Under the pieces are notes generated by a model, which saw only the letters and a program-made list of their open reading frames with translations, made no database searches and had not been told where the DNA came from. A program made the position numbers and the translations under genes. Positions 5,370 through 63,970 of a stretch of DNA of 64,000 bases are shown piece after piece. The DNA lies in assembly GCA_017506865.1 (NCBI GenBank), contig JAFCMP010000124.1, positions 434,001 through 498,000 on the forward strand. Reading direction: 5' to 3'. The number at the start of each line of letters is the position of its first letter. The stretch's first letter is position 1. This DNA is from Tribonema minus (lineage: Eukaryota > Sar > Xanthophyceae > Tribonematales > Tribonemataceae).

Positions 5370-8300
5370 ATGGGCAATGCGGTGAACGTCTTGCCAGCCT
5401 ATATCAATGTGCACGAGGCAGCTCGCACAGGCCACATTGCCGAAGTCAGGTGAGCACACTTGGCGAGCTGGCATCTTTGCATTGACGTGCACATTAGTGT
5501 TCCCTTGCGTGAGTGCAGCCAGTCGGACATTGATCGCGCTGACTCAACGCTGAGGTCCATCATGCGTCGCGCTCCATCTGCCTTGGTGTGCGATGCTGCA
5601 CCCAGCAATGAAACAGTCTTGCACATTCATTGACCCCGCTGAGTTAAGCATACCATCATGTCTGCACACAATTTCTGACAGCATGACACCTGACATGTGG
5701 CAGCACATTGCCTCCACCTTCCGACTGACACACACCTCAAGAAGTTCGCCAACCGAAGGCCAGAGCACACGCCAGTCCTATTCCAGCCTCGCTGAGTTTC
5801 GCTGCTGCCTCGCATGACCGCCAAACAGAAAATGGGTGGACGCAGGCAAGGAGGTGGATGTGCGCGACAACACGCAGAAGACGCCACTGCACTTTGCCGC
5901 GCAGTGGGGGCAGGAGGAGGTGGTGGCGTTCCTGCTGCACTGCGGCGCAGATGTCAACGCTCAGGACTTCATCAATGACACGCCGCTGCACGTGGTACGT
6001 ATGTATGTGTGTGTGTACGCGTGTGTGTGTGGGTGGGTGAGTGTGTCTGTGTGTATGGACGAGGTAGCTCTCACCCGGGCGCATTTATACATAATTTATG
6101 ATGATGTGTAGGATAATGTGACGCCTGCACTGCGGCGCGGACGTCAACGCTCAGGACTTCATCAATGACACGCCGCTGCATGTGGTATGTATGTGTGTGT
6201 GTGCATGTGAGCGTGTGTGTGTGTGTGCGTGTGTGTGTGGGTGTGTGTCTGGGCGAGGTAGGTCTCGCGCTCGGGGGCAATATGAGTATGATGATGTGTA
6301 GGATTATGTGAAGCCTGCACTGCGGCGCCAATGTCCACGCTCAGCACTTCATCAGTGACACGCCGCTGCACGTGGTGCGTATGTACGGACGAGGCAGCTT
6401 GCACACCCGGGCGCACTTGTGTAGAGGTATATACATACATATATATTCACTTGCTTCCATAAGGCTCCTGAGGGAAGAGAATGTATGTGTGCGCGCGCTG
6501 CAGTCAAGTTGCGTGCAGCAACTTCACGACATGTGCTGCGTCTCAGCAGTAGCACCATCGGCAATGCCACCATGTGCTCGAAGGTACCTTCCAAATGTGA
6601 CTGTCCTCCAGTAGTCAGATGCGCTTGGAAATTGCTGCTGAGCCAATGTCAAAACGCATGCGTTAATCAGGTGACACGGCGCTGCTTTTGGGGCGTGTGT
6701 CATAACCCTGTGAATAGTCACTCTCTCTCACTCACTCACTCACTCACTCACCCCATCAGGCGTCCTACTGGGGGCAGGCGCGCTGCGTCGGCGCCCTCCT
6801 CTCCGCCGGCGCCGACGCCCGCGCCCTCGATCAGTACGGCAACGGCCCCTGCGACATCTTCGATGACCACATCCGGCCCGAGGTGGCGGATGACATTCGC
6901 GCGCAGATCGCCGCAGCGCGCGCTGCGCTGCTCCGCGGCGAGCAGCCGCCGCCGCTGCTCGCAAGCCTCTCGGTCCACCACAACTCTGGCGGCGGCAGCG
7001 GCGGCGGCGGCATCGGCGGCGGCGGCGGCGGCAGCAGATATTGTAGCAGCGCCGCACTGCTGAGTGCGAGTAGCGGCGGCGGCGGCAGCAGCGGCGGTGG
7101 CGGCGGCGGCAGCGGCGGCGATGGCGCCGACCGCAGCTGCTGCACGTGGGGCGCGGCCAGCGGAGCGATGCTGCGGGCGGCGGATGCGTATCGGACGCGG
7201 CCGGATGGGGGTATCGATCTGCATGCTGCCGCGCGCGATGGGCAGGTGGCAGTGCTCCGGGTGGCGGTGACGGAGGGGACGTTTGTGGACGTGTTTGACG
7301 AGGCGGGGATGACGGCGCTCATGTGGGCGGCGCGCTGCGGCAGGTATGTATGTATGGCCCAGACGATCAACGTAGCGCTCATCACGAAGGGAACCAATGG
7401 TGCAAAGTTGTTGCAGAGTTACAAAGTGCTCGGGCACACAATTGATGTTGCCAAATGGGAGGTCGCCTTCCATTGCTGGTGCTGGTGCCACTTGGTCATG
7501 GAAACGAATCAGAAGATCATAGAGCTCTAGGTGACAAGGTGTGGCTTGCCGCCGGTGCCTTCCACCAGTAACCGCGGTCGCCGCTGCTGCGGTCATTGGC
7601 CACGGGTCAAACAGTGCCACCCTATTCACAGGAGCCAAAAGACTTCTGTGTGCAAGTGTACTACTTTGAGATGTGTGATTGGCCGCACGTGCTTGCGCAT
7701 ACCGAGTCAAATCAGGTTCATCTCTTTACTGAGCCCATATAAGGCTCGCGTGAAAGTCGGTGGCCGAACCGTGTTCGAGTGCGGCTGTCTACGGCAGGTA
7801 TGTATGTATACTACTTCAAAGTATGTGATTGGCCGCACATGCTTGCGCATACAGTCAATCGGATTCATATGTTTACAGAGCCCACCTCAGGCTCGTGTGA
7901 AAACCGGCGGCCGGACCGTGTTTGATGCCGCTGTGTTTCATGGTGGCAGGGCAAATGTGACCGTGCGCGCTCATGTGGGCCGCGCGCTGCGGCAGGTATG
8001 CATGTATGCTACTTCCAAGTACTTCAAGTATATGTGATTGGCCGCACGTGCACACTCACGCGGTCACTCAGATGCGTACCTTAGAAGCCTGAATGTGTGC
8101 ATGTATACCTCTGTAAGTATGTGATTGGCCGCACGTGCTCGCGCATACAGTCAATCAGATGTGTCGCTTGTGTTGGCCGCACGCTGCAGGTATGTATGTA
8201 TGGATGCTTTGTTGTTGGCTAAACGTGCCTGCGCATGTGCTCTGACATGACGTAGAGAGCTGCTGCTCACTGACCTGGTGCTCCTTACTGGCAGACACAG

Positions 8301-11300
8301 ACGTCAAGGTGACCAATGCAATGGCAGACAGACGCCAGTCGCATGCTGCTAGCATTGATTGTGTTGTGGTATGTGCACCTGCAACGGTGACTACCTTAAC
8401 CGTCAAGCGTGCAAACGGCAGTGAGCATGTAACTGTCATATGCTTCAACATGCTTGATCACGCACTTGGCGTTGCAGCCACGCCAAGGCTCGCGTGAAAG
8501 TTGGTGGCCGGATCGTGATTGGTGTAGCTGTGTTGCATAATGGCAGGCCAAATGTGGCCGTACAGAATAAGAAGTAAGAAAAAACGTGATAAACTGTGGA
8601 ACGTAGGCGCTGCGTGAAGTGTGCCCGTGCACACGTACAGTGTACTCATATGGAAACGTACTTTAAAGTGTGCTTCTTCATAGTATTTGGTTGGTTTGGT
8701 TGAGAGGCAACAGACCGCAATGAATGTGTATGCTGCAGGCGGTTTCGCTCGTAACTGAAACTAGCCGTGCGTGCGCGACGCTCATCCCAATCAGCACTGC
8801 ATGCATGGCACGGCCGAGTGTCATACATGCATACATGTGTGGCCACTGGCTGTTGTGTTGCAGCAGTGCTCAGGGGTTCAAGCACAGTTCATAAATGTAC
8901 TTGTATATACACACCATTCGGACATTCAGCCATGACTTTGCCTACATGTAATCATGTACTTGGCAGAGCCAGCTATGTAAGATAGGGGCTGCCAGTTTCA
9001 CTGTAGCAGAATCTGTTTAAGTGTAAGATGCAGTCAACAGCTCGCCCATTCCGTGCAGCGATCTTGCCACAAGGAACTGCCACATCCCAGCAGCTGGTGG
9101 TGATATGCCACGCTGCTGCAGACATGCCACAGCAATGACAATACAGCGGATACGAGAGAGCAGACCAAGTTTCTGCAGATTGCCACTTGCAGCAGGACAC
9201 AACAAGAAACTTTGATTTTGACCAATGCTTTCTCGCTAACCCTAACCCTAAGTCACGGTCAGCGAAGATAAGGTGCGGCAACGCGCCTGCCCAAAACATT
9301 ACCCTAACTCTAGCCCTGACCCCTACCCTAACGCCTGCACTGCCCTCTCCCCGCCGACGCAGATACGGTGCGGCCAGGGGTCTTTCCAAACCCAAACCCT
9401 ATTCTTAGCCCTAACCCTACTACCTGCACTGCCCCCTCCCCGCCGAACCACGTTACTTGCAGCAGTACGCAGGAGGCAACCTATGCTCTGACCAACCCTT
9501 CTTTGCTGCCCTTTTTACTGTCAGCGTGGGCAGGGCGCGGACAGGGTTCTTTCCAAACTCAAACCCTAACCCTGACTCTTGCCCCACCACCTGCGCTGCC
9601 CTCTCCCGACAAACGCAGATACTCCAGCGCGCAGTTTCTCCTCGACGCGGGAGCCGCCACCCTAACCCTAGCCCTCTGCAACCCTAACCCTAGCCCTAAC
9701 CCTACTTACTCCCTGCGCTGCCCTCCGCCCGACAAACGCAGATACTCCAGCGCGCAATTCCTTCTCGACGCAGGCGCCGCCATAGACTGCCGCGTGGGGC
9801 CCCGCAGCAGCAGCAGTGGCAGCGCGCAGCGGCGGCGGCGGCGGCGGCAGTGCGCAGCGACGTGCGGTGCGCGCTGCTGCCGCCGCGGCGGCGGCTGCGT
9901 AACGGCGCTGCACCTGGCGTGCTACCACTGCCGCCCCGCCATCGTGCGGCTGCTGGTGGAGAGGGGAGCGGACGTGGGCATTGTGGACGCAGAGGGGCGT
10001 GCGCCTGGGCGCGTGTTTACCGTGGCAGCGCTCATACGCTGCGGCGGGCTGACCGAGAGACGACAGGTGCGCTACGTTGTCATTCAAATGCGTTGAAGTG
10101 GGGGATAGGGCTAAGCTTGGACGTGGGGATTGTGGACGCGGAGGGGTGCGTGTTTACGGTGGCACTCATACGCTACGGTGGGCTCGCGGAGCGGCGGCAA
10201 GTGCGCTCTGCTGTCACGCATGCTGTCAAAGCATCAGAGTTGGCGATAGGGCTGAGATTTGCCTTGAGGCTTAGCTTAGCAGTGGGGCGCCTGCCGGGGC
10301 GAGTGTTTACCGTGGCAGCGCTCACACGCTGCGGCGGGCTGGCGGACCGGCGGCAGGCGAGTGCTGCTGTCGTACTGGCAAGCCTGGGGTTCGGGGTTGA
10401 ATCAGCAATGGCGGTTCCCTTGGGGGCGCATGGTAACTGCGGCAGCCCTCATACGCTGGGGTGGCTTAGCTAACAGGCGGCAGGTGATCACGTAATCCTG
10501 CCCCCAACTCTATGCGAATTGACCTTGCGGGTCAAAATGAAGTAAAGATTAGGGTTGGGGTCAGGGTGGCCCTTATGAAGGGCTTAGTGCTTGAAATAGC
10601 AAGCAATAGGGCGCATATTGCTGGTGGCAGCACTCATAGGCTGCGGCGGGCTGGCCAAGCGGCGGCAGGCGATGTTTGCATGGCACTTGGGTCAAGGCGT
10701 AAAATTTAGGGGTTGTTCAAAGCATACTTCGACATTGGGTCTAGTATTAGGGCTACGATAAGGGCTGCCGACGCGGCGGAGCGCCTGGTGGGGGGCGCGT
10801 TAGGGTTAGGGTTAGGGTTAGGTTTAAGGTTAAATTAGGGTTGGGGTTTGTTGTGGCGGGCTGGCCGAGAGCAGCAGGCGAGCGAGGGTGCCTATACGCT
10901 GGGGGTGACCAATGTGTCGTCAGTATGGCTTGGGACCAATTGATTAACAGCCAGTTGAAGACTTGGTCTTTCAGTGTTAACGGCATTTGCACTATTTGGG
11001 CCACACGTTGCCACCCGCTACTTTTCCGAGTTCCGCCTCCACTTTGACCCTAACCCTACGTAATGCCCAAGCCCTTTTTTCAAGTGTTATTTAAGCCATT
11101 TGTGTCCGCTCTATAGAAACCCCATTTCAACCCCAGCTGACACCCTAGCCCTAAACCACCATTTGCTCGTGTGCCACGCGTCATTGCTCTCCTAAACCCT
11201 GTGTGCCCGTGTCCATTCCCTTCTTGAATCATGCCCCAGCCTTCACCCCGAATGTAGTTCACACATACGTATTCGCGCGCTCCAACCCTGACTTGAGCAT

Positions 11301-14300
11301 GAGAGGCCTAACTCTGCATTTCCTGGGCCACTCCTCAGTGCTCCCTGAGATCCAACACCAGCATATGACAACGCACTACTGCTCTGCGTACCTGCAACAA
11401 ATTTTTGCCTGCCCTGCCTGCTTTCCTCAAGGCGTAGCAGAACCCTATGTCTAATCCTTAGCTGAACACTAGGCGTCGCGCTAACTTTTCTGGGCCACAC
11501 TTGATTGCTCCCTCAGATCCTGCAGTTTCTGTCCGGCAATCTGGAGTGCGACAGGGGCACCCCGAGGATCACAAGCCACATGTGTCCGCTATATACTAGG
11601 CTTACTTCAACCCCCGCTGACATTGAAACCCCTACCCCAATGCTTGCTTGTGTTCCCACCCCTGGCTTGCTCCCTCAGATCCTGCAGTTTCTGTCCGGCA
11701 ACCTGGAGTGCGACAGGGGCACGCACGGCCCCGTTTTCCCCACACACGCCCCCCTGGAGGCCTATGACGAGGAGCACAAGCCAGCAATTATACTGCCGAA
11801 ACCGCACAAAGGGAGCACTGATGGTGAGCCTCCGAGTCGTTGCGCGATTGATGCAGACTATGCTTGTAACCGTTTGTTGTGGGATTAAATCATTTCAAGC
11901 AGAAGCACAAGCCGGCAATCATGCTGGCCAGACCGCACAACGGGAGCACCGATGGTGAGTCTGAGTACAAGTCTGAGTCTGAGCACTGTCAAAAGTGTGC
12001 AAGGGGAGCACTGATGGTAAGCCCAAGTACAACAGTAGTCTAGTACACAAGCACCGGCCGGTCAGGATGTTGTCATGCACTTCTCTCAGTAGCACCAGAA
12101 GTCGGCAATTGCCTTGCTGGCAAAACCGCACAAGGGAGCACCGATGGTGAGTCTGAATGCGCATTGGGTGTGCATTTGTCCTTGTCCTCTGAGCGCTGTC
12201 ACAATGTTGCGCCTCCAGTACCCCCATCTCTGCAGCGCAGTGCCAGAGAACATGATTGAAGTAGGAGAATGAAGACTGGGATTTGAGCAAATAGACTTTG
12301 AGATTAACGCCCACACGTAAACATACATGCGCGCACCCACGTGTGGCGCGTGTCGCATTGCCGATCTGTCCGTTCACTGCTGCAGTGCCACGCCTCTCCA
12401 CTGGCGGCGGCATCCACTACTACCTGTACATACTGCAAAAAGCCAAAAACCATGCGTACACTTCAATAGCACGTAGAACTGTGATGTAAACGTTCAACAG
12501 TACAAACCACCCCAGTAGCGAATCTAGACCTAACCCTCCCCCCGAGGGGCGCTGTCCTCTTTGCTGAGCACTGCTGCAGCGCCGCGCCTGTGCGCCGGCG
12601 GCGGCATTCACTACTACCTGCGAAGGATAGCTTTTGAGTGCAAGTATGCGCACACACGCCATTCAATACCTACCCCAGCAAAGAAATCAAATCCAAACCC
12701 TAATTACGCCCGTTTTGTTGCAGAGCGCTGCTGCAGCGCCGCGCCTCTCCGCCGGCGGCGGCATTCGCTACCTCTTGCGCCATATACGCTTCCTCTTCAA
12801 AGCAGGAGTACATGCACACACGCCAAACAATACATGCGTACATACATGCCCACCACCGCAGCGATGAAATCATATGCGCCCATTTTGCTGCTGAGCGCTG
12901 CTGCAGCACCGCGCCTCTCCGCCGGCGGCGGCATCCACTACTACCTGCGCCGCGCCAGCATGCTGCCCGTGGCCGTGGCAGCGGACGTCGGCGAAGCCAT
13001 GTCCAGCATCCGCGTCGTGGTGGCGCGCGGGCTGGGCATGGCGCCGCCGCTCGCGCAGCAGCAGCCGGCGCTGGGGGTTGAGGTGAGGTTGAGCATCAGC
13101 ATCACGGGAGCGTTACACTTAAAGTATATACTTCTATACTGCAAGAGCATGCACTTGAAGTAGCATATGGCATGGTGCCGCCGCTCGCGCGGCAGCAGCC
13201 GGCGCTGGGAATTGAGGTGAGGCTGAGCATCAGCATCATGGCAACATTTGCCTTACTGATAACCCTATGAAACTCTGGTGCTCGTGTCAAGTGTGTGCTC
13301 ATACGCATTTCGCGACCGTAACATGTACTTTGAATGTAATGCCAAGCCCAGCATACGCGTCGTGGTGGCGCGCGGGCTGGGCATGGTGCCGCCGCTCGCA
13401 CGGCAGCAGCAGCCAACGCTGGGGGCTGAGGTGAGGTTGAGCATCAGCATCACGGAAACGTGTACTTCAAGTGCAATGCCATGTGCAGCATATGCTTTAT
13501 GGTGGCGCGCGAGGTGGGCACGGTGCCGCCGCTTGCGCGTCAGCGCTGTAACCTATAACCTAACCCTAACCCTAACCCAATCTCACAACAAGCCCCAAAC
13601 CCTACAGCTTGGCCCCAATGCTATACCAATGAAACCTGCCGCATCTCGGCCAGCCCGCAGCAGCCTATGAACATGGCTCTCCCAGTCGCCCCCGTAGCCT
13701 AGCGCTTTGTCATAGCCATGACCTCCCATCGTCACCAGCAGCCGCGCTCACTAGAACAGTCAGCTTTTCCAACATTCCCATAATCTGAAAAGTAGAGGTG
13801 CCGTTTACGAAACGCTTGACTCAAGCCTCAGGCGGCGCACGCGCCTCCCCACTGCGCCTTTCGTCAACTGCCCACCCCCAACCTCACCTTGACCTGACTG
13901 CCTAAACCTAACCTAACCCAAACCCTAGCCTACCCCTAACCCTCCTCTGGCAACACGGCTCAGGCAGCGCAGCAGCGCAAGCGCCGCCGCCAGGGCCGGC
14001 GCGCCCCCTAACTGCCTACGCCTAACCTTACCCAAACCCTAGCCTCACCCAAATCCCAGCCTAACCCTAACCCTCATCTGTCAACAACGCTCAGGCAGCG
14101 CAGCAGCGCAAGCGCCGCCGCCAGGGCCGGCGCGCCTCCGACCCCGGCGTCCTCAACCACGGCGGCAGCGCGGCGCTGCCAGGCGGCGTGCCGCTGCCGT
14201 CGGCAGCAGCGGCGGCAGCGGCGGGCGGCGGCGGCGGCGTCATGATGGGCCGCGAGCGCGGTCTCGACGCGCTCCTTGCACAGCGCCTGCTGTCGTTCAA

Positions 14301-14361
14301 GGGCCACGGCTCCTCCAATCAGGTGCTGCCGGCGGAGAGCGACGACAGCGAGAGCGGCGGA

Positions 14362-14433
<72 letters not shown>

Positions 14434-14736: not shown

Positions 14737-15539
14737 GTCGCTTGTCTGCGGCATCAGGCTTGTAGTGTATCGACATGCGCAATCGGCAGCTGGCAGCAGC
14801 AAGCAGCTACAAGCCCCGCCGCACTTGCAGCAGCTGTATTAGTGCAGCAGCAGGTGGCGGGGCTGCGGCCGCTGGGATGAAGCTCAACCAACCAAGCTGC
14901 GCTGCGCACAAGTTTCGATGATTGTTGTACACCTGGCGCTGAGAACTTCAAGTTGCCTGGACAGCTGGGTACTGCCGCTGCCGCGCGATGAAGCGCTGTG
15001 CTGCTGCCTTAAACTTCGAGATGAAGTTTATCAGGCGTTACCGCTTGGACATCACGCCGACCTGACGCTTGCGGCTGTATGTACCCCCGTCGCAGCAGCA
15101 GCAGCAGCGCTCAGGGGGGGGGATCGCGCCTGCAGCAGAGTCGCGTCACTGTCTGCGCAACGACCACAAATTTTGTTACTCGGGCCGATCGATTGCCCTG
15201 CTCTTCCATGTACTCATGGCGCGGCGGACAGCGCATGACAGCCCGCACTTACACGCTTACACTCAGAAACAAGTGCTCTTGAGCACCATCGGTATTACAG
15301 TTTACGATACTCGCGGGTTTGTAGGTGTAATCACAAGCACATGTGCCTGCGCGCTGCGTCTCTCACTCTCTGTCGGCATTTGACGTTTATTGTGTGCTTT
15401 GTATGCGTACCGCGGCGGCAAACCGTTCCCCCACACATGTCATTCCATGAGTACAGCAGCTGTTTCATGAGTACAACTGCGGCACTGACGCGCCTAAATT
15501 TGCTCATGTTGCTTGCTCACAACACATGTACAAGAGCAC

Positions 15540-44900: not shown

Positions 44901-44902
44901 GG

Positions 44903-48600: not shown

Positions 48601-51600
48601 TTGAAGCACTAATGATGGGCGTTGTATACGCCTTTTTAAATAGAAGGCCCTTGTGAAGGTCATCGTAAATCTGCATCCTGTGGATATGCAAAAGGATGCA
48701 ATCGGCGATTCAGAGTGTCCTCGCGATATATGTACATGTGTCATAATGTTATTGGGATCAGGCACTTCTCAGAATTGAGTACACTTACTAAGTTGAAGTA
48801 CATCGAGCACTTGCCACGTAGTGAAGGCGCACTGCATGTACGCTCCATCCAATACTTTCCATACTTGCACATGCATGTTCTGATACTTTACCTTGAAGTA
48901 CCCATCACTGTAGCTGAGTACTCTAGCATTTCAAGTAGTTTGTAGTGTAGTCCCTCTGCGACAGGTGTCAAAATATACCACAACGCACGTTCAAATATCG
49001 TGAAACCTCATGTACAGTTGGTTATTCTAAGGCTACTCGAAGGACTATGCTGCAAATGTGTATTGATTTCTTCAAGTAGTTCAAGTGCAGGTCCGCCAGC
49101 TTGTCGCCAGGCCCAACTGCATGTCACACGTACATGTGTATACAAAGCGTGCACAAGTGTGGTATAAACTGATGTGCAAACGGTTGCCGCGTACATACCC
49201 AGAGAAGCGTATAAGCGCATTAGCCTCACAAACTTCAAGTAGTTGAAAAGGGGGCATAGGCTCACCCGCAACAGGTGCGGATCTGCGACCTGACCGCCCA
49301 GGCCCAACTGCATGTCACATATACAGCATACAGCACAGTACAAATTTGAAGTACTCCTATGAGATTAAAGTGCATGTCTTCAAACTTTGAGTAGTTGAAG
49401 TGCAATGACCTCACGCGTGACAGGTGGAGATCCGCTAGCTTGTCACCCAGGCCCGACTGCACGTCACACATACAAACCACATTCTAAACATTCGATATAA
49501 GCTTGATGTGTAACTTCAAGTAGCTGAAGTGCATAACCTCACCCGCGACAGGTGCAGATCCGCTAATTTGTCGCCCAGGCCCGACTGCACGTCGCTGCGC
49601 ATGGCTCCAAATGGCTTCAGGTCGAGCCACTCCAGCACCATGAATGCGCCGGGACCGATGTCTCCCACCTGACTCAAGGTCAAAGACGGCATTGACAAAG
49701 AAATTTGTAAACACAATGGTCTCAGCAAGTGAGGCTGCTAGTCCGGCATTGTTCTCCCTGCACATGGTTCTGCAGTGCAAGTTGGTGAGCTCGAGGTATG
49801 ATCAATGTCGGCAACCTGAGTTCATGGCGTGAAACGAGGTGCTTGAAGTCATTCATGAACATGGGGGCCAAATGGCTTCAGGTCGAGCCACTCCAGCACC
49901 ACCAATGTCGCCAACTTGAACACAATGTGAGCAAACAGAATTTTAATGATCTACTTCTTTAGAAGGGAGCTTAGCACATGGATCGCGCATACATGCTGCC
50001 TATAGGCAGGTGTGATCATATGCATGCAGACTCAGGGGAGCTCAGCACATGGATCGCGCATACATGGTACCTATAGGCAGGTGTGATCATATGCATGCAG
50101 ACTCAGGGCAGGCGTGCCCGAATACTTCGCACATACATTCTGGGGGCAGACCAATGTGTACATGCCATCTTTACTTGGGGCAGCATGTGTGTGCATGCGC
50201 AGCCAGAGCAGTCGCATGTACATGCCTACATGCCTGTTGCATGTACATACATACATACCTTTGGCAGGCGCCCGAGGTGCAGCGGCAGCGGGCAGTGCAG
50301 CGTCTGCGTCTTGGCCAGCGCGCTGAGGCTGACGGCCTCCGTCATGAGCACGCTGCGGCGCGTGAGAAATGGCAGGAAAATGCCGGGGGAAACGGTAAAC
50401 GCACTGCATTTATAATGCTGAAGAGCCCGCGACTTGCAGGAAATGCGTGGAAGACGGTGAATGCACTGGTGCTGCAGGCTGCAGCGAAGGCGGGACTCCT
50501 TCGTGGGCATGCCGCAGCACGAATGGCATTGCAGCAAATGACACGGAGGGGGACGATACTTGCTCTGCAGGTGCCAATGGCGGCTCTGCAGCAGCGGACG
50601 CTGACTCAGTCCAGAGCCTTGCCTTGCGTGTAAGATCAGGAACGTAACTAGAACACTAAAAAGCTGGCACACACAAGTATTTTGACAACTGTGGATATGA
50701 TGGCACTGTTTTACGCGTGACCAATGACTGCAGCAGCGGCGACCACGGTTATTGGTGGAAGGCACTTGCGGCCAACCACTCCTTATCACCAGAGCTCTAC
50801 GATCTTTTGATTCGTTTTCGTAACATGGGGGGGGGGGGGGGGGGGGACCTGCCGCCTGGTGCTGCAGGCGATGCTGGCGGTCTCTGCAGCAGCGCTCATT
50901 GCATACGCGATCTGCACATCGAAAAGAGGGGTGCTGGCCTGCTCGTGCAACTTCAACTTCAGGGGGCCACAGACAGGGCTGGTATTGAGGTTAAGGTCGG
51001 AATGGTCCTGCTGCCAGCTTCAGTTTTGGCTGTTGCGTACTTCAAGAAGTGCTTATTGAACTTCAAGAAGTGCTTTTTGAAGTACAGAAGTACCACAGGA
51101 CACTGGCAGAAACGTCAGTGCAAATTGCACCGCAAACGTCCGGCGAGGCACTCTTGGGCGCTGTGCAAGTTTGCAATATGGTGCCGGCAACCAGGCGTGA
51201 AGATGCCGCGTACACATTCATGAACGCGGATGAATTGAATGCCTTGAATGATGCCGTGACTCACAATGTGATGCGCGAGTCCCACCAGACGTCATGTACA
51301 CAATCACGGACATAATATTTCGGATTAGTTCGTGTAGTATCATATCAGTAAGGCCAGGAGTAACATAAATACTTCCAGGTGCACACGCGATACATCATGA
51401 ACGCCGTGAGCAGCTCTGCTACACGAGGTGCAACATGCGAGCCTCGCATGATGTCACATCCACATCCATGGATTTGAATTAAATTCATCGCGGTGAAGCA
51501 TCATTTATCAATTCTGTGAAGCATATATGGATGTTCTGACTCATGAGCCGCACCTGACGTCTTCCACCCTGTTCATCTTGACAAAGAACCGGCCCTTGTC

Positions 51601-54600
51601 CGTGTCGTACCGGAACGCCTCGTTGCCGTTCCACCTGCATAGGGTTAGGGTTGGGGTCAGGGTTAGCACACGCCCACGAACACGTCAGCGAGGGTCAGGT
51701 TAGGTGCCTCATTGGCATTCTAACTGCGTAGGCGCAAGCGCCAGCAAGCGCATCCAGTGAGGGCAAGTACGAGTTCCGACAGTCACACACTTAGGGTAAG
51801 GGTGAGCTTGGTGCCGTTCCATCTGGAGGAGCACATGTGCTTACGGGCGCATCAAGTTAGGTTTAGGGTTAGCACAGGATTAGGGTCAGGGTCGGTGCAT
51901 ACGCGGAGCGCACACCCAGTGACGGTTGGTACAAGTCCCGATAGTCACACACATGCGCTTGGGGGTTAGGTTTAGGTGCGTGATTTTATCGCCGTTCCTT
52001 TTTGAGCACATGCGCGTACGGGCGAATCAAGCTAGGGTTAGGGTTAGCACAACGTTAGGGTCAGGGTCAGTGCATGCCGATGTTGCCGATCTACCTGTGT
52101 GAGCGCACCCAGTGACGATTAGCATGAGTCCCGATAGTCACACACATGCACTTGAGCTTAAAGTGAGGCTCGTTCCACCTGTGTGAGCGCACGGCGAGAT
52201 TGGTATTTCCATGCTTTGCTAGATGAAAATCTTACTTTGAAGGACACAAAATTGTGTGCCTGCGCACTCTGTACGCAGCCGTCAGTCCACGACAAGACAA
52301 AACGTGGACCCTCCAGCACAACTCTAGTGCACATGTTGACCCTCTGGGCTCTTTTGTTCCCTCAGCAACACTGTCAAGTTCAAAAACACGCGATGGTCGA
52401 AAACAGTACGGGTAGTCAGAGCTTTAAGGCACGGCAGCAGCGCGCCTGCCGCGCTATGCTATCTGTATACCGCTATGCTAATTTGTGTGTGCGCGCTCTG
52501 CGCCAGTGGTGTGCACATGCACACCACAACCTCACCTACAACTTCAACATGGTACCGCCAAGCGGCCTGAGTGTACACATTTGTCGCTAAGAACAAGCCA
52601 GCGTCGCAACATGTCATGGGCATGCGCCAGCGTTGCAATAGGCGTGTGTCCAGAGGCAGGGATTGAACTTCAAGTTTGAAGTACTGGACGTGAGTGCATC
52701 ACCCCGAGCGGCCTCGATGCATGTTTGCACAAGGACACGGCAGCACGCCATCCTATGCAACACGCCACCCAATAGTGTGTTCAGAGGGTAAATTCAAACT
52801 TCACAGTTGAAGTTATGGATTGGTGCGTCACCTGCTGTCGAGCAGCTCCAGGCCCTTGACCTCGGTGCACTTGAGCACCGTCTTCAGAGCCGCAACGATG
52901 GGATCGCTGTCCTCCGTTGTTGGCTGCAATGCACAACAGGTCGTGATCGCGAGAGAGAGAGAGTCTCACTCAGGGACACGGGGATGACAGTGCTCTACGG
53001 CATGTGAGCTGAGCAATGCGACAGCTTTGGTCGTGTGCATTCGCCGGTGCCTGGTGCATGCCACGGGGCTGCGGCAAACTCGCATCTGCTCCAACGGAAC
53101 ATGAAGTACACACATCTAGTGCGCCAGTCACAGGTTTAGGCCCATGTGCGGGGTGACATTCCCCCCTGCGTAGCGTAGATTGCAGCTTTTTGCTGGCCGC
53201 AAAGCAGGCTGCATCAACGCTCCTCCGTGCCAGTTCAGCTGCGGCTCAGGGCAGGTTTTTATAGCCTCATATATTGCAGTATGCTATGTAGAAGGGCGCG
53301 AGTTTCTGGCACTCCACGTGCCACCGCAACAGCTGTCACTGCGCAGTACGCTTGAAGGGCACATTCTGGCACTCCACCGCGCGTCAACACACAGAGCGGC
53401 ATGCCATCAACGTGGCATCACTGAACATGCATGCGGCGCTGGCAATGTGCTTGTGATCTCAGATCTACAGATTCTCATCTGCTGAGCTGCAAAAATGCTA
53501 CCTCGCTGCGCAGTACACATGCAAGTGAGGGCCAAAATCACTGACCATGTATTTCGCAACGCCCTCCAGTAGACTATAACGTTCTCGCGCTCTGCGTCCG
53601 CCTGCAGCTTTTGCGTGCACAGATTGACAAGCATCTCATCTACGACAGCACAGTATTGAGCTGCAAAACTGCTTCCTCGCTGCGCGATACACTTGCTTGC
53701 AAGCAAAAACGAAAAGTACTGACCATGTATTTCGCAACGCCCTCCGGTATGACATTTTCGCGCTCTGCGTCCGCCTGCAGCTGCTCCATGATCCGCTCCG
53801 CCTCCTGCATGGCCTCCTGGTCGCCTTCCTCGTTGTCAAAGCCCACATCGAGGACAGCCTGCACACATGCACGCACACATAAGACTCCACAGTGTCAAAT
53901 CCAAACTGCATGTATGAATACATACACGACCTTTGCTGTCAGAACGCAAGTTGACCTCTGCCTGCATATGTACGTCATACTTTGAAGTACACTGTCTTTA
54001 CGGTTGAAGCCCACGTCGAGGACAGCCTGCACACATGCATACATGCCCCCCGTCTTCAGTGTCAGAATTATTTAAAACCGATATCAAGCACAGCCTTTGT
54101 AAATGGGTACACCATGTTTGCTGTAAAATCCCACATGAAGCACCGCCTCCCTTCGTTATGCACATGCCGTGTTCGTTGCCAATACCGGGCAACACCGTCG
54201 CGACCGGCCTGCATGTGTGCAATGGCCCAGCAATCAGTGGTGGGCGCGTATTGCAGCATCCAGTGAATCAGTTGAGCGAGTTGGTGGAAAGTGAGTGTGT
54301 TGAAGTGTGTGTGTGTTGAAGCTAGGGGCGCTCAACATAGCTCTTTGTGTGTGAAGCGCATGCGCTTCACAGGTGAAGCTGGGTTTGGTTGGTTCAGCCT
54401 TTGCTCCAGTAGCATGACACTCGAAGGTCACGTGGCCTTATTCCAGCCTGGTGCCTCAGACCATTCGACTAAACTATTCCTTGTTTGTTCTTCTTTCAAC
54501 AGGTGATCGGCCAGCAGAGCAGTTTTCAGCCCATTTTCGACCTTGAAAACGACAATTTCACTGCTTGTTGCAATATCATGTCTGGAAATAACCCATGGTC

Positions 54601-55695: not shown

Positions 55696-58600
55696 ATGCT
55701 GCAGACGTTGCTGCGGCGCCTGTCAGAAGGAGGGGGAGTCATCGCTGGGGATGGCCCTCTGTCCACCTCGCTCACCCTCTACCTCATGCAAATCATCGTC
55801 ATCATGACGTGCTGCCAGGTAAGCAGCTGCATACAGCACTGCTGCTGCAATCCCAGTATGCATTGACGCATCGCGAATGACCATTTCATTGTGTGAACCA
55901 TCATTTGACACGCTCGAGGCCTCTAGGAGTGTTGTGTTCTTTGTGGACAGAGCGAACTCATCTTCTAGCGATGCTGAAATGGCAAGTTGTCTGTATTTTG
56001 ATGGGTAGAGAATGCTACCTCAAACGGTTTTGCATTAATGGTCCTTTCCCGAGCACGCCTCTGCCGCTGAATACTACGCGCCGTCGTACACTCTTAGTAG
56101 TTGACACAGGCCCTGCCTTTCTGTTCCGGCACCAATGTTTTCATTTGATCCCTTTTCTTTTCAATTCTGCCGCTGCCACCCTTCTTCTACAGTTACTTGG
56201 AATGGTGCTGGTGCGGTTCAACCAGCCCAGGGTCATTGCTGAGGTGAGAACATGTCAAAAGCAGCACTGCACTGCACGTACATAGAACCCAATGCGCCAC
56301 ACCTGTTCAGCTTCTTGTGCACATCAGTCATTTGCGGTATGAAGCTGGCGAGCGGTCACTGACCCTGTCCACCACATGTACAGAATCTAAAGCCAGCAGC
56401 TTGTGCCATGCTTTGGCCGTCCCATGCGGAGAATGTATGGCACGTCAGCATCGCTCGCCTACATAACTCAATCCTAACTCAAATTCTAACCCTAACCCGA
56501 ATCCTACATTCACCCTAGCCAGGGCAGTGATAGGGGCAGAGGCAGCCAATGCTGGCGCATTGGTTGCATAACCGCTCCCGTCCTGAGAGTGCTCTCTGGC
56601 GCTCGTGACAGGCTTGCCCATGCACTGGCATCTCATCGGTCGTCGCACCGTTTCTGGCCACTTGAAGTCTTTGCGTCGCACAGCGCAATTTTATTGCAAT
56701 GACCGCCCTTTGATGACATACGAAACACTAAGAAAATTTACCTAGTCGCGCATGCTTCACTTTCATCAGCGCGCGCCATGTGCTGACAACACACCTGCTT
56801 ATTAACGCGCGCCACGTGCTACATGAAACGGTGGCACTGTTTGACTCGTGGCCAGTCGCTGCAGCAGCGGTAACCGCGGCAACTGGTGGAGGGCATCGGC
56901 GGCTAATCACACCTTGTCACCCAGAGCTCTACGATCTTTTGATTCGTTTCCATGAACTCTGCCTTGCCATTTTCCGCATTGCGCGCTGATGCCATCCAGG
57001 TGATTGGCGGGATCCTATTGGGCCCGTCCTTCCTGGGCCGCATCCCCGGCTTCACGGACACGCTGTTCCCCCCGGACAGCATCAACGCGCTGGAGTTGAC
57101 GGCGTCACTGGGCCTCATCTTGTGGGTGACTCTCCCATTGCGTGTGTGTTGTGCCGAGGTTCAGCGCGTGCTGCTGTCTTTGATCCTGACCCTAATTCCT
57201 GTGAGAACAGCCCGCATGTTGAAAACATGTGACTTGTGTGTGTGGCGGACAGCATCGACGCGCTGGAGTTGACGGCGTCGCTGGGCCTCATCTTGTGGGC
57301 GACTCTCCCTTCATGCGTCGTCTCGTTGCGTGTCTTGTGCTGAGGTTTAGCGCGGGCTGCCATCCCCTAACCCTAACCCTAATTCCTGTGAGAAAAGCCC
57401 GCACACTGAAAGCACGTGACTTGTGTGTTTTGGGTTTTTGCAGAAGACCAGCGCTCTCAGTCGTGCTTCCTGTTCCTGTGAGGCACGTCACCATGAGAAT
57501 TGTGGGATCCAGGCAGGCGGCTTGTCTAGAACTGCAACTTGAACTTGAAGTCAGGCGCCTATATACATGAAAATGTGCGCCTGCACGCGCATGACAACCG
57601 CAAAGCAGTGGTCTGCTGCTGAGCCACCTGATGAGCTGCACACTGCGGGGCAGTGCAGCCACCAGCGAGCAAGTTGAGGCGACTCGGCGATGCTAATGCC
57701 CCTATCCATCTCTCTCTGTCTACATCTTTCCCATTCATGCAATTGCTGCAGTGGCTGTGCAACGCTGAACCGTCATTCCCCTCTCCCTCCCGCGTGTGTT
57801 GTGTTCAGCTTCTTGTTCATAGTCGGGCTGGAGCTGGACCCGAGGCTGCTGAAGGACAATGCGAAGCGGTCGCTGATGATCTCGGTGGGGGGGCAGGGGC
57901 TCACGTGGGTGTTTGGAGTGCTGCTGGCGCTGCTGCTGTACAACACCATGAAGGGAGACAGCGCGAGCTTTGCCACTTTTGTGGTGAGTGGTGACTGCGC
58001 AGTGGGGCATTCATAGAATCAATTTACAGGTGACATGTACTGACTCCACTCATCTGTACAACACCATGCGGGGGGGCAGGGCGAGCTTTGCCACTTTTGT
58101 GGTGAGTGGTGACCGCGCAGGGGGCTCAGTGATGTTGCATTCATTCACTGCATAGATGGATGAATGAATTCCATTCACATCGCGTACAAGGAATGATTGT
58201 GGTGATTGGTGACCGCGCAGGGGCCGTTCAGTGACACTGCATTCATTCATTTTACAGGTAAATGAATGAATTCCATTCGCGTCGTGTTAAGTAGTGAGCG
58301 TGGTGAGTGGTGACCGCGCAGGGGGCTTGGTGATGCTGCACTCATTCATTTCATAGGTGAATGAATGAATGAAGCTATTTGCGTCATGTACAAGTAATGA
58401 TTGTGGTGAATGGTGACTGCGCAGGAGGCATTCATTGTTGCTGCATTCATTCATTGTACAGGTGCATGAATCAAATCCGATTCACATCGAATTGAAGTAA
58501 TAAGTGGGGTGAATTGAGGCTGCGCAGGGGGCAGTCAGCAACACTGCATTCATTCATTTCATGGAAGAATATCGGCACATCGCATACAAGTGATGAGTGT

Positions 58601-61600
58601 GCAGCCATTCATCACCAGGGTTGAGTGCGTCACTTTGAAGTTATTCAAGACAGTGATGTGATCTGGCGATTTGAGAGCTGCTGACGCTGCTGCTGCAGAA
58701 GAACCTTGAGAGTCTAATTGCGTCGTTCGCCCGTTCCCATTCAGCAACTTAACATGGGCAATCAGTTGCATGGGGTGGGTGCCATCAGTCCTGTCTGCTC
58801 TGGTCACCTTTATACTTGAAGTGTATTTTCTTGGAGCATACACATGAGCGCTATCAGTAACTGCCACAGCGGACTTGAGCACTGCTGCCACCGTGCAGTG
58901 CAATATGGCGTTACTGCAAGCTGAAAGACTTCTTTCCCATTTCAAGTTGGGTTCGTGTCCAAGGAGCATTGTTCATATGTGTACACTATATCTACCTTGG
59001 TGTACTACTCACAAGTCATATGAGTACTGCAGAAGCATTGACGACACAAGCGACAAGGTAATGGTGGCTTGAGGCAGTCGCAGTGCTAGGGTTAGGGATA
59101 ACCTAACCCGAAACCTCTGCACTAGCTTCTGCACAACAATGTCATGGTTTCTTACCACTTACCTCGGTGGGGGTTGGGTGTATGCCTGATGGCATCAATG
59201 CCCTGGATCGGGGGCTTGCCCGGTGATGTTCTGAACAAGCAGGGTAAGTATGTATCTTAGAAGGAAAAACATCAATCTAGAAAACGAACCAAGACTAAAC
59301 GAGCACAATCTTCGGATATTGAGACTATTCTGGAGCATGAAGTGGTGTCCTGGAAAGCTTTTTTTTTTTTCCACTGCTGCACAGCAGTTTTTAGAGAGTT
59401 GGTACAGAGCGCTCACACCGCTGCGGCTGCTACACGAACATCACGCAGGCGCTGAATGCCCCATGGCTTTGCTGGCATGAGCATGGCTTGATTTCAGGGG
59501 TCATACAAACCCTATAGTCAGGTTTACCCTACGATTAGGGTTAGGGTGAGGTCAAGGTGGGGGTTGCATTGCTCCTTGGATCAGCGCCTGCGGACGCTTG
59601 ATTCTTCTGTTGCGCCATGTTGAAGTATGATCATCTTCACGTTGTCCCCGCGTCGAGTTCTACTGCATCAGATGGCCGTTAGCATGCAGTGGCAAGTTAT
59701 GTCTGATCTTGAGCTTCGCTTCATTCTGACCGTGTTGGTTATGTCGCTCTGCGCCTTTATCCGCTTTTGTCTGTTGCGCGTGCAACAGCTGTTCATGGGG
59801 GTCGTCATGTCCGCTTTATTCTGACCGTGTCTGCGGCATCGCTCTGCGCTTTCTCCCTGCGCCTGTTGCGCGTGCAACAGCCGTGCATGGGGGTCGCCGT
59901 GTCCGCTTATACTCTGACTGTCGCTCCGCGCTTTTCTTCCTGTCTTTGTTATGTGTGTAACAGCTGATCATCGGGATTGCCGTGTCCGCTTTATTCTGAC
60001 TGTCGCTCCGCGCTTTTCCCCCTGTGTGTCTGTTGCGCGTGTAACAGCTGATAATGGGGGTCGCCATGTCCGCTTTACTCTGACTGTCAGGCCCTGCTCT
60101 TATCCCCTTCGTCTGTGCGTGTAACAGCTGTTCACATGTCCGCTCTATTCTGTCCGTGTCTGTGCTAAGTATTCTCTGCGCGCTTTTCTCCCAATGTCTG
60201 TTGTGCGTGTAACAGCTGTTTATGGGGGTCGCCATGTCCCTCACGGCGTTTCCCGTGCTGTCGCGCATTCTCACGGAGGGGCGCCTGCTGGGAACGACTG
60301 TGGGCATCACTACCATTGGATCTGCAGGTGCGATACTTCTTTGAAGTATTAGTTAAGCTTGAGCACTAGAGTTAGGATAGGATCAGAGCTTAGGGCTAGA
60401 GACAGGAAGAGGGTTAGAGGTAGTAGGGTCAGGGATTCAATGCCTGACAGAAAGGCGGCTGCGGGGGGTAGGGTTGGGGTGAGTGCTATTGTAATGACTG
60501 TGGGCATCACCACCATCGGATCTGCAGGTGCGATGTTAGTCAAACATGAGGACTGGGGTAAGAGTGAGCATAGGAGCTTAGGGCTAGAGACAGGAAGAGG
60601 GTTCGAGGTAGGGTCGGGGGATCCAGTGCCTCACAGAAGGGCGGCTGCGGGGGGTAGGGTTAGGGTGAGTGCCAGCGTAATGATACTAGGTTAAGAGTGG
60701 GATAAGGGTTTAGGGCAAGTGATGGGAAGGGGTTAGGGGGCAGGGTCAGAGACCCACCTCCTGACAGAGGGGGGGGGGTGTCGCGGGTGGGGTTAGGGTT
60801 GGTGTCACTGTTAGCCATCGGATCTGCAGGTGCGATGCTTGTCAAACATGAGACCCAAGCAGACACAATACTCTTTGCGGCTAGTGCATATGTTGCTAGA
60901 AAGGCTAGTGCATATATATGTTGCTAGACGATTTGATCATTTAGATTAGGGTTAGGGTTAGGGTTAGGTTTAACCCTAACCCAGGCAGCAAAACATCAAG
61001 AGCCACGTCAGTGCCCAACGTGGGCATCACCACCGTCGGATCTGCAGGTGCGGCCCCCGTCAAACATGAGGAATAGGGTTAGGGCTAGGGTAAGGACTAG
61101 GGCTAGACAGGGAGAGGGTTAAGGGTACAGTAGGCTCAGGGATCCACTGCCTGACTTGCCTACGACACCGTGTAACCGTGTACGCTGCTGACAGCCTTTG
61201 ACGATGCTGGCGCCTCGCACCAGTGCCTGACCCTGACCCTACTTATCTGCTGTACCGCATGCCGTCTGTCTGCCCTGCGCAGCCTTCGTCGACCTGGTGG
61301 GCCTGGTCCATGCTGATCCCGAACCCTACTTGCCTACTAAACTGGTACCTCGCACCAGTGCCTGACCCTAACCCTACTTACCTACACCACCGTGTCAACG
61401 CCCCTGTGCCCTATTGCGCGCAGCCTCTGATGACCTGGTCGCCAACCCTACTTGCAAAACTGTAACCGTCTGCGCCCAGCCCTCGACGACCTGGTTACCT
61501 GGTCCATGCTCGCGCTCGTCCTCTCCATCGTCCATGCCGGCCAGCCGCAGCCGGCGCTATACGTCTTCCTACTTATGCCTAACCCTAACCTACTTACCTA

Positions 61601-63970
61601 CATCACCGAGTAAACTGCCTGTGTCCACGCCGGCCAGCCGCACCTGTGCCTAACCCCTAACCCTAATGTGTACCCCCCTGCTTACTGCATGCCCTGGTGC
61701 GCGCAGCCTTCGACGACCTGGTTGCCTGGTCCATGCTTGCGCTCGTCCTGTCCATAGTCCACGCGGGTCAGCCGCAGCAGGCGCTGTACGTCTTCCTGAC
61801 GATGGTCGCCTTCGTCATCGTCATGCTCACCGCGGGGCGCAAGGCAGCGGCGTACCTCGTGCGCCGCTTCGGCGCCAACGACAACGTCTCGCTCGGCGTC
61901 GTCTTCTGCATCTTCGTCACGGTGCTGCTGAACGGCTGGTTCACGCAGATCATAGGGGTGGACGCGATCTTCGGCGCGTTCGTCACGGGCCTCGCGATGC
62001 CCAAGGACGGCAAGCTCGCCATCACAATTACGGAGAAGCTCGAGTCGTTCGTCACGGTGAGTGAAGTTGAATCTAACAGGAGCAGGTAGGGTCGGGGTTA
62101 GGGACTAGGGTTAGGATTAGGATTAGGGTTTGGGTCAGCTTGCGTGCCCTATCCTGCAGTCCCTGCAATGCACACAGGGTTATCGCCTAGGCTCAAAGTT
62201 AGCGTGAGGGTTAGCACAAGGCTTGGGCAAGCGCTACGGGTATGTATCGCGGTGGGTCATGAGGCCGTGAGGTTGCTGCGAAAAGGCACGCACGGCATGA
62301 AGCGCACCTAACCCTTACCCTGGTTGGGAATAGGGTGGGGGTCAAAGCTAGGCCAGCACGCGTGCTTCCGCGCTCGTTAGGGTGAGGGTTAGGGCTAGCC
62401 ACCGCCGTGCACCAGGCCAGCGCACGCAGCTCCTGCGGCTTTTAGTAAGGGCTGGCGCTAGGGCTAGAGTTAGGTAGGTCATGTTCTCGCGCTCGCTGCC
62501 ACTGCCGCGCGCATTGCAGCCATGTTGGCTTCAACACGTGCAAACCATAACTGATCAACAACTATGAACACACACCAATCCCCGTCGCAGGTGCTGCTGC
62601 TACCGATCTTCTTCGCCAAGAGCGGTCTCAAGACGGATTTTGGGGCACTCAGCAATAGACAGGACTGGTGTTTGCTTGAATATGTGTAAACCAACAACTG
62701 ATCAACAACTCTGAACACACACCAACCCCTGTCGCAGGTGCTGCTGCTGCCGATCTTCTTCGCCAAGAGCGGTCTCAAGACGGACTTCGGGGCGCTCAGC
62801 AATGGAAAGGACTGGGGCTACGCGGCGCTGGTGATCCTGGGGGCGTGCACGGGGAAGATCGTCGGCTGCGGCACCGCGGCCAAGCTCTCGGGTCTCGGGT
62901 GAGTAGACTCAGACTGAGACTCGGACTTGTTTATCGGATGGATACTCACATCCACTGAATCGTAGTCCTAAGGGCGTTCACGGGGAAGATTGTTGGCTGC
63001 GGCACCGCGGCCAAGCTCTCGGGGCTTGGGCGAGTGGATTCAGAATGAGACTCGGACTTGTTTATCGGATCGAGACTCACAATCACTGAACCGTGATCGT
63101 CGGTTGCGGCACCGCGGCCAAGCTCTGGGGGCTCGGGTAAGTGGCGCATCAGATTGAGACTCAGACTTGTTTATTTGATCAAGACTTGCACTCATTGAAT
63201 GGCGATCCTGGGGGCGTGCTCGGCTGCGGCACGGCGGCCAAGCTCTCGGGGCTCGGGTGAGTGGACTCAGAATAAGACTCAGACTAGTTTTATCAGATCG
63301 AGACTCACATTCACTGAATCGTGATCCTGGGGGCGTGCACGGGGATTCATTGGCTGCGGCACTGCGGTCAATCTCTCGGGTCTCGTGTGAGTGGCATTGG
63401 ATCGAGACTCGCACTCGTCGGATGGAGACTCACATGCATCAGATCAAGACTCACAATCATCACATCGAGACCCACATTCACCTTGCATTAGGTTAAGACT
63501 TGCGCTCATCAGATGGAGACTTGTAAGTAAACGTCTATTTGAATCAAGACTCGCGTGCATCGGGTTGAGATTCACATTCACGTGGCATCAGATCGAGACC
63601 GACGTGCCCCCCTATGCCTGAAACAGCGCAATAATTATCTACTGGCAGTCAACAAGGTGTACGTGTTTCCTACACATTTCTGGGTTTATCTCGCTTCACA
63701 GTGCTGACCGGTGCCCCCTATTGCACGCTGTGTGCTAAGCCCTGCCAGCTTCACTTCTGAGTCTGTCTGGCTGAACAATGCTGATCCCCTCATGCCTGAA
63801 ACAGCACAATGATCACCTACTGTCAGTCAGCAAGGTGTATGTATGTGTTTCTTACACATTGCGTGCGCACTTGCTTTGCTGAGCACTGCAGCAAGAGGGA
63901 GTCACTGTGCGTGGGGGTGCTCATGAACACGCGCGGCCTCGTGGAGCTCATCATCCTGAACGCCGGCCTG
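55696..63970 (+). CDS. CPA2/CHX-type monovalent cation:proton antiporter (3' end outside window)
   Basis: Exons 55696-55818, 56193-56243, 57000-57121, 57809-57983, 60216-60327, 61707-62056, 62738-62898, 63892-63970 (then a GTGAGC donor at 63971). Phases fit; 391 residues are seen. Family landmarks in order: RFNQPRVIAEVIGGILLGPS, LFPPDSINALELTASLGLIF, FLFIVGLELDPRLLK, LFMGVAMSLTAFPVLSRILT, AFDDLVAWSM (ion-binding D197-D198), IGVDAIFGAFVTGLAMPKDG, LLLPIFFAKSGLKTDF and VGVLMNTRGLVELIILNAGL. These proteins exchange K+ or Na+ for H+ across internal or plasma membranes through ~12 helices. The DD pair is like bacterial CPA2 members, whereas plant CHX proteins usually have ND. The first ATG is at 55696; the frame is open a little upstream. 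Nearly every intron holds echoes. Confidence 0.93.
56824..56957 (-). repeat. R2 dispersed repeat copy
   Basis: Inverted R2 (GAAACGGTGGCACTGTTTGA, GGTAACCGCGGCAACTGGTG, AGAGCTCTACGATCTTTTGA, TTCGTTTCCAT). It ends 42 bases before the exon 3 acceptor of the antiporter gene and is antisense to it. Confidence 0.88.
57240..57305 (+). repeat. Antiporter exon 3 donor echo
   Basis: GACAGCATCGACGCGCTGGA GTTGACGGCGTCGCTGGGCC TCATCTTGTGGGCGACT copies the exon 3 end (true donor 57121/57122), with the preceding CTTGTGTGTGTGGCG intron text. Confidence 0.95.
57975..58590 (+). repeat. Antiporter exon 4 donor echo array (~102-bp period)
   Basis: GTGGTGAGTGGTGAC.GCGCA recurs at 57981, 58099, 58199, 58300, 58403 and (decayed) ~58505. 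Each is followed by CATTCATTCA..CAGGT and GAATGAATTCCATTC. The first is the true donor; the second still carries ~50 exon bases. Confidence 0.96.
59785..60215 (+). repeat. Antiporter exon 5 acceptor echo array (~85-bp period)
   Basis: GCGTG.AACAG|CTG.T.ATGG GGGTCGCC.TGTCC and GCTTTATTCTGACTGTC recur with AGs near 59788, 59879, 59964, 60049 and 60127, before the true acceptor at 60215/60216. Confidence 0.95.
60300..61075 (+). repeat. Antiporter exon 5 donor echoes with TTAGGG DNA
   Basis: GTGGGCATCACCACCATCGG ATCTGCAG|GTGCGAT and TCAAACATGAGG recur at ~60499, ~60817 (short) and ~61020, after the true donor at 60327/60328. Degenerate TTAGGG text (GCTTAGGGCTAGAGACAGGA) is part of the repeated unit. 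Confidence 0.93.
60945..60982. repeat. Head-to-head telomere-like junction
   Basis: Four TTAGGG units run directly into TTTAACCCTAACCC, so G-rich and C-rich telomere repeats meet in inverted orientation in antiporter intron 5. Confidence 0.93.
61260..61640 (+). repeat. Antiporter exon 6 acceptor echoes
   Basis: GCGCAGCC.TCGACGACCTGG and GCCTGGTCCATGCT.. recur near 61277, 61419 and 61478. The 61478 copy runs ~85 bases into exon sequence (to TACGTCTTCCT) before turning into CCTAACCCTAACC. True acceptor at 61706/61707. Confidence 0.94.
62530..62665 (+). repeat. Antiporter exon 7 acceptor echo (~148-bp unit)
   Basis: ACTGATCAACAACT.TGAACA, CACACCAA.CCC.GTCGCAG|GTGCTGCTGCT and ~70 exon bases appear once before the true acceptor at 62737/62738. 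Confidence 0.95.
62940..63480 (+). repeat. Antiporter exon 7 donor echoes
   Basis: GGGAAGAT.GT.GGCTGCGGCA CCGCGGCCAAGCTCTCGGG, CTCGGGTGAGTGGA and GAGACTC..ACTTGTTTATCGGATC recur near 62985, 63095, 63225 and 63345, after the true donor at 62898/62899. Beyond these, GATCGAGACTCACATTCA units continue to ~63600. Confidence 0.93.

Follow-up and report, generated by a model that had tools for sequence, protein, structure and literature searches.

Why do the introns of one algal locus begin and end with copies of the exon edges that border them? The locus belongs to Tribonema minus, a xanthophyte and a member of the PX clade of the Ochrophyta, whose genome comprises 158 Mb in 554 contigs. The window, the whole stretch of 64,000 nucleotides that was analysed, corresponds to positions 434001–498000 of contig JAFCMP010000124.1 (C124), and its positions 5000–64000 were inspected. 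The first-pass annotation had reported, in six of eight gene models, copies of the preceding exon end at the start of most introns and copies of the next exon start at their end. It had proposed recurrent duplication starting at splice junctions, or selection keeping spare splice sites. Here, an echo is a copy of an exon edge and its intron flank that is found inside that edge's own intron.

Twenty-four introns in four genes (ANK, OXR, FN3K and NHX) were spliced by hand, of which 23 were GT-AG and one was GC-AG. The affected genes are unrelated and lie on both strands, with ANK, OXR and NHX on the plus strand and FN3K on the minus strand, in agreement with the earlier description. The hand-spliced FN3K protein (330 aa) matched the deposited 'fructosamine 3 kinase related protein [Tribonema minus]' with 100% identity and coverage, and all seven junctions agreed with that protein. 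It also showed 73% identity over 98% to a Vaucheria transcript protein. The ANK protein aligned collinearly with a protein from a metagenome (39% identity, 549 columns, 14% gaps). The alignment of NHX with a Powellomyces exchanger had one gap in 341 aa, so the NHX echoes are not coding insertions. Every frame of OXR was interrupted, and the best frame had two stops, which leaves one or more of the OXR junctions in doubt. The genes and echoes are listed in Table 1.

Table 1. Genes in the window and echoes found at a score of at least 40.
Feature	Gene or intron	Position	Strand	Remark
Gene	Ankyrin-repeat gene (ANK)	5370..14736	+	7 exons, open over 705 aa
2 donor echoes	ANK2 (5995-6759)	6125..6385	+	90-92% identity
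2 donor echoes	ANK3 (7344-9741)	7967..8203	+	
3 acceptor echoes	ANK3 (7344-9741)	9302..9659	+	
4 donor echoes	ANK4 (10067-11678)	10144..10669	+	
1 acceptor echo	ANK4 (10067-11678)	11505..11560	+	98% identity
2 donor echoes	ANK5 (11824-12906)	11901..12154	+	
3 acceptor echoes	ANK5 (11824-12906)	12377..12781	+	
3 donor echoes	ANK6 (13083-14094)	13169..13544	+	
1 acceptor echo	ANK6 (13083-14094)	13904..14008	+	
4 acceptor echoes	OXR1 (29418-30480)	29841..30382	+	
1 donor echo	OXR2 (30578-32546)	30692..30742	+	
1 acceptor echo	OXR2 (30578-32546)	31715..31761	+	
1 acceptor echo	OXR3 (32715-33753)	33544..33662	+	
4 acceptor echoes	OXR4 (33927-35821; donor GC, uncertain)	35474..35760	+	about 77-bp period
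2 weak acceptor matches	OXR5 (35951-37405)	37121..37316	+	doubtful, look like short simple repeat
Stop-codon-region echo	FN3K, coding end, not splice junction	45552..45601	-	score 65, reverse complement 17; coordinates by hand
Gene	FN3K gene	45688..53860	-	hand-spliced, 8 exons, introns FNK1-7; outer coordinates by eye
1 acceptor echo	FNK7 (45950-47134)	46048..46151	-	
5 donor echoes	FNK7 (45950-47134)	46347..47020	-	
5 acceptor echoes	FNK6 (47363-48311)	47498..48193	-	
3 donor echoes	FNK5 (48422-49542)	49082..49465	-	
1 acceptor echo	FNK4 (49669-50258)	49870..49912	-	
1 donor echo	FNK1 (52924-53723)	53490..53609	-	
Gene	KefB-type cation/H+ exchanger gene (NHX)	56244..63970	+	from first spliced intron on, introns NHX1-6; right end by eye
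1 donor echo	NHX2 (57122-57808)	57246..57360	+	
4 donor echoes	NHX3 (57984-60215)	58054..58435	+	
4 acceptor echoes	NHX3 (57984-60215)	59747..60071	+	
3 donor echoes	NHX4 (60328-61706)	60493..61052	+	
3 acceptor echoes	NHX4 (60328-61706)	61247..61537	+	
1 acceptor echo	NHX5 (62057-62737)	62538..62650	+	
4 donor echoes	NHX6 (62899-63891)	62972..63438	+	

Each of the 48 edges of the 24 introns was searched against its own intron with a query of 60 nt of exon and 30 nt of intron. The same-strand score was at least 50 at 26/48 edges (13/24 donor, 13/24 acceptor), and 31/48 edges outscored all 100 dinucleotide shuffles. Against the reverse-complemented own intron, 0/48 edges reached 50 and 1/48 beat its shuffles, which shows that the excess over chance is real and that orientation is kept, as had been noted. 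When the other 23 introns were the target, a score of 50 was reached by any of them for 1/48 edges only. At a score of at least 40, 70 echoes (35 donor, 35 acceptor) were found at 28/48 edges in 20/24 introns, and ANK1, NHX1, FNK2 and FNK3 were free of echoes. These counts cover four genes and 24 introns, against the eight gene models of the first-pass annotation. In two more genes, seen as minus-strand fragments at 22700–24050 and 24930–25930, echo arrays of the acceptor and donor types were recognised by eye only and do not enter the counts.

The echoes in the window differed from their parents by 2–22%, with up to five echoes per edge. Local repeats covered a median of about 0.38 of the intron (24 values), and the NHX3 intron contains up to eight decoy junctions (four donor and four acceptor echoes). 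Splicing of the deposited FN3K protein joins the outermost sites of all seven introns, five of which contain echoes. At the level of this deposited splice model, the inner FN3K junction copies are shown to be left inside the intron.

The arrangement of the echoes is that of tandem duplication. Donor echoes all preceded acceptor echoes in the 8/8 window introns holding both kinds, because a tandem unit across a donor places its copy downstream and a unit across an acceptor places it upstream. The reported absence of donor echoes from the acceptor side follows from this geometry. The nearest-copy spacing had a median of 136.5 bp (5–95%, 76–430; 46 edges), and each unit comprised about 20–90 nt from the exon edge together with flanking intron, with a mean exonic share of 0.43. 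In the window, 115/120 direct repeat pairs lay within 1.5 kb and TRF arrays were present; 0/19 inverted repeat pairs lay within 2 kb. The copies are therefore tandem and share intron flank, as the first-pass annotation had it, and the flank in each unit is contiguous and unspliced. Its further claim that copies decay with distance was not borne out: the nearest echo resembled the parent more than the farthest did in 18/33 untied arrays (p = 0.73), and the identity–distance correlation had a mean rho of −0.19 over 25 arrays. The spacing of the 46 nearest echoes modulo 3 was 0 in 8, 1 in 14 and 2 in 24, a distribution spotted post hoc.

The pattern was then sought in kinesin genes and sampled regions. 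In a Pfam search for kinesins there were 132 exon matches, from which 20 stretches were chosen because their matches were adjacent, and six more were added later. Of 43 introns found, 33 were kept; 10 with weak splice calls were dropped, as were three of the six later ones. Echoes were present in 14/33 kinesin introns, in 9/18 loci. The score was at least 35 at 20/66 edges, and 24/66 exceeded all 60 shuffles; against the reverse complement, 0/66 reached 35 and 4/66 beat their own shuffles. A control with another intron as target was weaker here, with at least 35 reached for 13/66 edges. With a 120-nt query and three extra introns, an echo of at least 40 was found at 24/72 kinesin edges versus 28/48 window edges. 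The window is richer in echoes than the kinesin sample.

Sixteen sampled 10-kb regions were examined with a purpose-built exon finder, which was weak: it predicted 88 exons, of which 40 donor and 33 acceptor edges survived low-complexity and flank filters. The signal was weaker here than in the kinesin sample, a point against an excess at junctions: echoes were found at 6/40 donor edges versus 80/1901 downstream noncoding windows. The acceptors of these regions showed no clear excess (2/33 edges versus 79/1917 upstream noncoding windows). One of the 16 regions (L013) had been picked for its match to the window, and the region on the window's contig (L021) was excluded from the edge and motif counts. 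Local direct repeats within 1.5 kb occurred in 14/17 sampled 10-kb regions (15 picked by position, plus L013 and L021). The junction-copy architecture is real, in the window and far beyond it, on many contigs.

The divergence of the echoes was measured on 120 echoes at 49 edges. In the 76 echoes with 10 or more aligned bases in the exon as well as in the intron, the mean identity was 0.90 for the exon part and 0.87 for the intron part. With OXR excluded, the mismatch at codon positions 1, 2 and 3 was 0.088, 0.075 and 0.165. The intron-flank mismatch of edge-spanning echoes, taken as one minus identity, was 0.17 for donors and 0.15 for acceptors. Mismatch at positions 1 and 2 is about half that at position 3 or in the intron because only the echo drifts there, the parent being constrained. 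This shows that the echoes drift much as neutral DNA does when it is copied from a parent under constraint.

A rival account of these data is tandem duplication that is purely neutral and strikes anywhere. Exon copies would be purged, intron copies would fade, and edge copies would stay recognisable via the conserved exon. The neutral drift of the echoes, their tandem layout and the local direct repeats in most sampled regions are all consistent with it. The stop codon of FN3K and its flank (45678–45727, minus strand) are also duplicated about 126 bp downstream, the gene having TAA where the copy has TGA. This was the one coding end echoed among three tested, the other two scoring 26 and 16; it fits neutral duplication, and a single echoed stop-codon region is too little to tell a splice-linked process from one that acts at exon edges in general. 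Sliding 60-nt windows centred on the exon side, at most 30 nt from the edge, had a copy in the intron at a rate of 0.49 in the window and 0.27 in the kinesin sample. At 90–510 nt inside the intron the rates were 0.23–0.35 and 0.12–0.23. Deeper than 720 nt, the kinesin sample reached 0.25–0.43 in five bins (at most 14 windows each) and then 0. This edge excess is only moderate, again as neutral duplication would have it; the count mixes echoes with independent repeats, and interior matches include echoes matching each other.

Repeat families and the length of the exonic part argue against neutral duplication alone. The families touching an exon edge were 31/37 in the window (0.84) and 21/31 in the kinesin sample (0.68), where uniform placement expects 11.6 and 10.2. 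One kinesin gene (L023) supplied 7/21 of the anchored kinesin families, and without it the count was 14/23. Forward simulations ran on random sequence free of simple repeats; exons were kept under constraint, tandem duplications fell at random, and deletions and array exchange also took place. Under neutrality, the simulated anchored fraction had a mean of 0.30 (maximum 0.50, 16 replicates) or 0.34 (maximum 0.41, 12 replicates), with 33 introns each. Other settings without a hotspot gave 0.31–0.55 at higher family density and 0.17–0.38 elsewhere, so that the overall range was 0.17–0.55. Unequal exchange inside arrays alone was rejected as a cause, the fraction in simulations lacking a hotspot being 0.17, 0.38 and 0.34 with exchange versus 0.35 and 0.24 without. 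When duplications overlapping an exon were made 10–20 times more frequent, the range of factors covered, the fraction was 0.59, and it was 0.75–0.77 once array exchange was added. In the model behind the value of 0.75, the hotspot consisted of exon DNA, yet the observed mean exonic share of 0.43 per unit is lower than expected if duplication depended on exon content. In the sampled introns, the share of arrays located at exon edges is thus two to three times the neutral expectation, and conservation of the exon by itself fails to account for it. Of the earlier reading, these families support recurrent local duplication across splice junctions, with a specificity beyond that of a general invasion by repeats.

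The exonic part of the echoes was limited. At 44 edges, the longest exonic extent was 0.05–0.50 of the exon (5–95%), with a maximum of 0.55 and a median of 47 nt, and it exceeded 60% of the exon at 0/44 edges. Random placement, and with it neutral duplication, predicts more than 0.6 in 29/62 cases for 120-nt exons, 18/56 for 160 nt and 5/60 for 220 nt. Relative to the smaller of unit and exon, 0.6 was exceeded at 4/44 edges versus 34/62, 27/56 and 26/60 in the simulations. The measurement left out the first- and last-exon edges of the window genes and the 10 kinesin introns with weak calls; where a kinesin edge was marked approximate, the true exon is at least as long as the value used, so the ratio can only be overstated. 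Taken with the anchored fractions, these counts make neutral duplication by itself a possible account, but a less likely one than that favoured below.

Two readings of the exonic cap remain: breakpoints are confined near the junction, or copies with too much exon are lost. The brown alga Ectocarpus shares the PX clade with T. minus. Two reports describe long introns and mammal-like exonic splice enhancers in Ectocarpus (PMC12477816, PMC4476162), which fits the loss of copies with too much exon.

We favour junctions as zones prone to duplication, combined with the loss of exon-rich copies, and give this explanation a probability of about 0.55. On this view the echo arrays are local tandem duplications of DNA, with units that span a splice junction. 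The roughly 100 nt to each side of the junction would be unusually prone to tandem duplication, for example through stalling or template switching at transcription–replication encounters. Through exon definition the cell may ignore the junction copies, and copies with more than about half an exon would compete in splicing and be lost. Introns would thereby lengthen inward from both ends. A more tentative proposal, which we rate at somewhat worse than even odds, is that junctions are duplication hot spots via transcription- or splicing-linked mutation, that introns bud off junction copies at both ends, and that an exon-definition filter limits the exon carried. The anchoring mechanism is one that we only infer.

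Selection preserving spare splice sites close to the real junction, the other proposal of the first-pass annotation, or preserving exonic enhancers there, seems possible but not likely. GT/GC or AG was kept in 68/72 echoes (64 under the strict count) versus 57.2 expected from exon dinucleotides. An edge bootstrap gave P = 0.0014 for this excess with GC donors counted as intact and P = 0.094 under the strict count. With GC donors counted, the edge-mean retention excess was 0.132 (95% CI 0.052–0.198), and the most diverged echo per edge retained its site in 36/40 cases versus 30.4 expected (p = 0.018). A fully constrained parent, at the rate of codon positions 1 and 2, by itself predicts that about 61/72 are retained. 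The donor G at +1 and +5 was kept in 33/33 echoes each and the acceptor G in 38/38, as selection would predict, but constraint on the parent site confounds this result. The same confounding applies to the splice dinucleotides, which beat the intron flank at 17/19 donor and 16/19 acceptor differing edges. The excess with GC donors speaks for spare-site selection, whereas the strict count and the neutral codon pattern speak against it, and it is not established.

A copying mechanism that starts exactly at the splice junction, such as an RNA-templated or spliceosome-linked one, would account for arrays sitting on junctions. The units, however, contain 6–119 nt of exon with contiguous unspliced flank, their start varies and they have no fixed phase, so the idea that duplication begins at the junction itself is unsupported and very improbable. 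Assembly stutter is hardly credible for echoes that differ 2–22% from their parent, number up to five per edge and recur on several contigs.

Other repeats were observed in the same introns and regions. The motif TTGAAGT/ACTTCAA was about tenfold over-represented (184 versus 18.3 expected, whole window and 16 sampled regions) and was not found in the exon flanks examined. As a breakpoint motif it was rejected, with no significant intron polarity (17 introns versus 12, p = 0.46) and no tie to breakpoints. In 57 window and kinesin introns, telomere-like GGGTTAG was polar, with 51 in the 5′ half versus 8 in the 3′ half, and CTAACCC occurred 32 times in the 3′ half versus 11 in the 5′ half. This polarity (19 introns versus 3, p = 0.0009) is part of a general G-rich 5′ and C-rich 3′ skew, and CTAAC could serve as a branch point. 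A short dispersed repeat containing GCGCCCTGAGCGAGAATTAATA lies at 15537–15633 and 16462–16558 (97% identical), and similar text was seen by eye near 41.85, 42.97 and 44.4 kb; it is probably a mobile element. A second dispersed repeat, containing GAGCTCTA(C/T)GATCTTTTGATTCGTTT, was seen by eye near 7.5, 40.2, 50.8 and 56.9 kb on both strands. A 24-bp tandem repeat of 5.8 copies lies within a long open reading frame (18862–19001, minus strand).

Several known systems resemble the echoes in part. Intronic minisatellite-like tandem repeats represent tandem duplication of intermediate size, and share with the echoes head-to-tail, diverging copies of about 75–200 bp in introns. The T. minus echoes are likewise adjacent same-strand copies at regular spacing, as in a tandem repeat array, but their families are mostly anchored at junctions and carry an exon edge of limited length. 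Tandem exon duplication, which gives mutually exclusive exons, also copies exon sequence into the adjacent intron, whereas the whole exon was copied at 0/44 T. minus edges (maximum 55% of the exon). Intron gain via tandem duplication likewise involves tandem duplication with splice signals. In that model, the 5′ end of the intron copies the start of the next exon and the 3′ end copies the preceding exon. In T. minus, the 5′ copies are those of the preceding exon's end, donor copies come before acceptor copies (8/8) and the introns pre-exist; with the far side of its own exon as target for each edge in the 16 regions, matches were 0/40 and 1/33. Potato RdRp is an example of such gain (PMC4974935).

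A report on Amoebophrya introners describes genome-wide spread, with direct repeats of 3–5 nt and inverted repeats of 8–20 nt (PMC7789003). Repeats shape introns in both organisms and direct repeats lie at exon/intron boundaries, whereas T. minus copies are local, contain 6–119 nt of exon, and inverted copies were not found among them. Dispersal of the introner kind was nearly absent from the window, where other introns reached at least 50 for 1/48 edges (13/66 kinesin edges at the laxer 35), and terminal inverted repeats were found at 0/48 window edges (at least 50) and 0/66 kinesin edges (at least 35). No description of the junction-echo pattern was found in the open-access literature searched. 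As far as that search went, tandem duplication is a known kind of event, and junction anchoring and the exonic cap are undescribed.

The introns of T. minus form a readable record, in which junction copies carry exon segments of a constrained parent, and this record bears on why introns grow. One genome makes it testable whether junctions are mutational hot spots, how a cell passes over as many as eight decoys in an intron, and how much exon a decoy can include before it is spliced. The echoes resemble real splice sites, and gene prediction in such genomes is affected.
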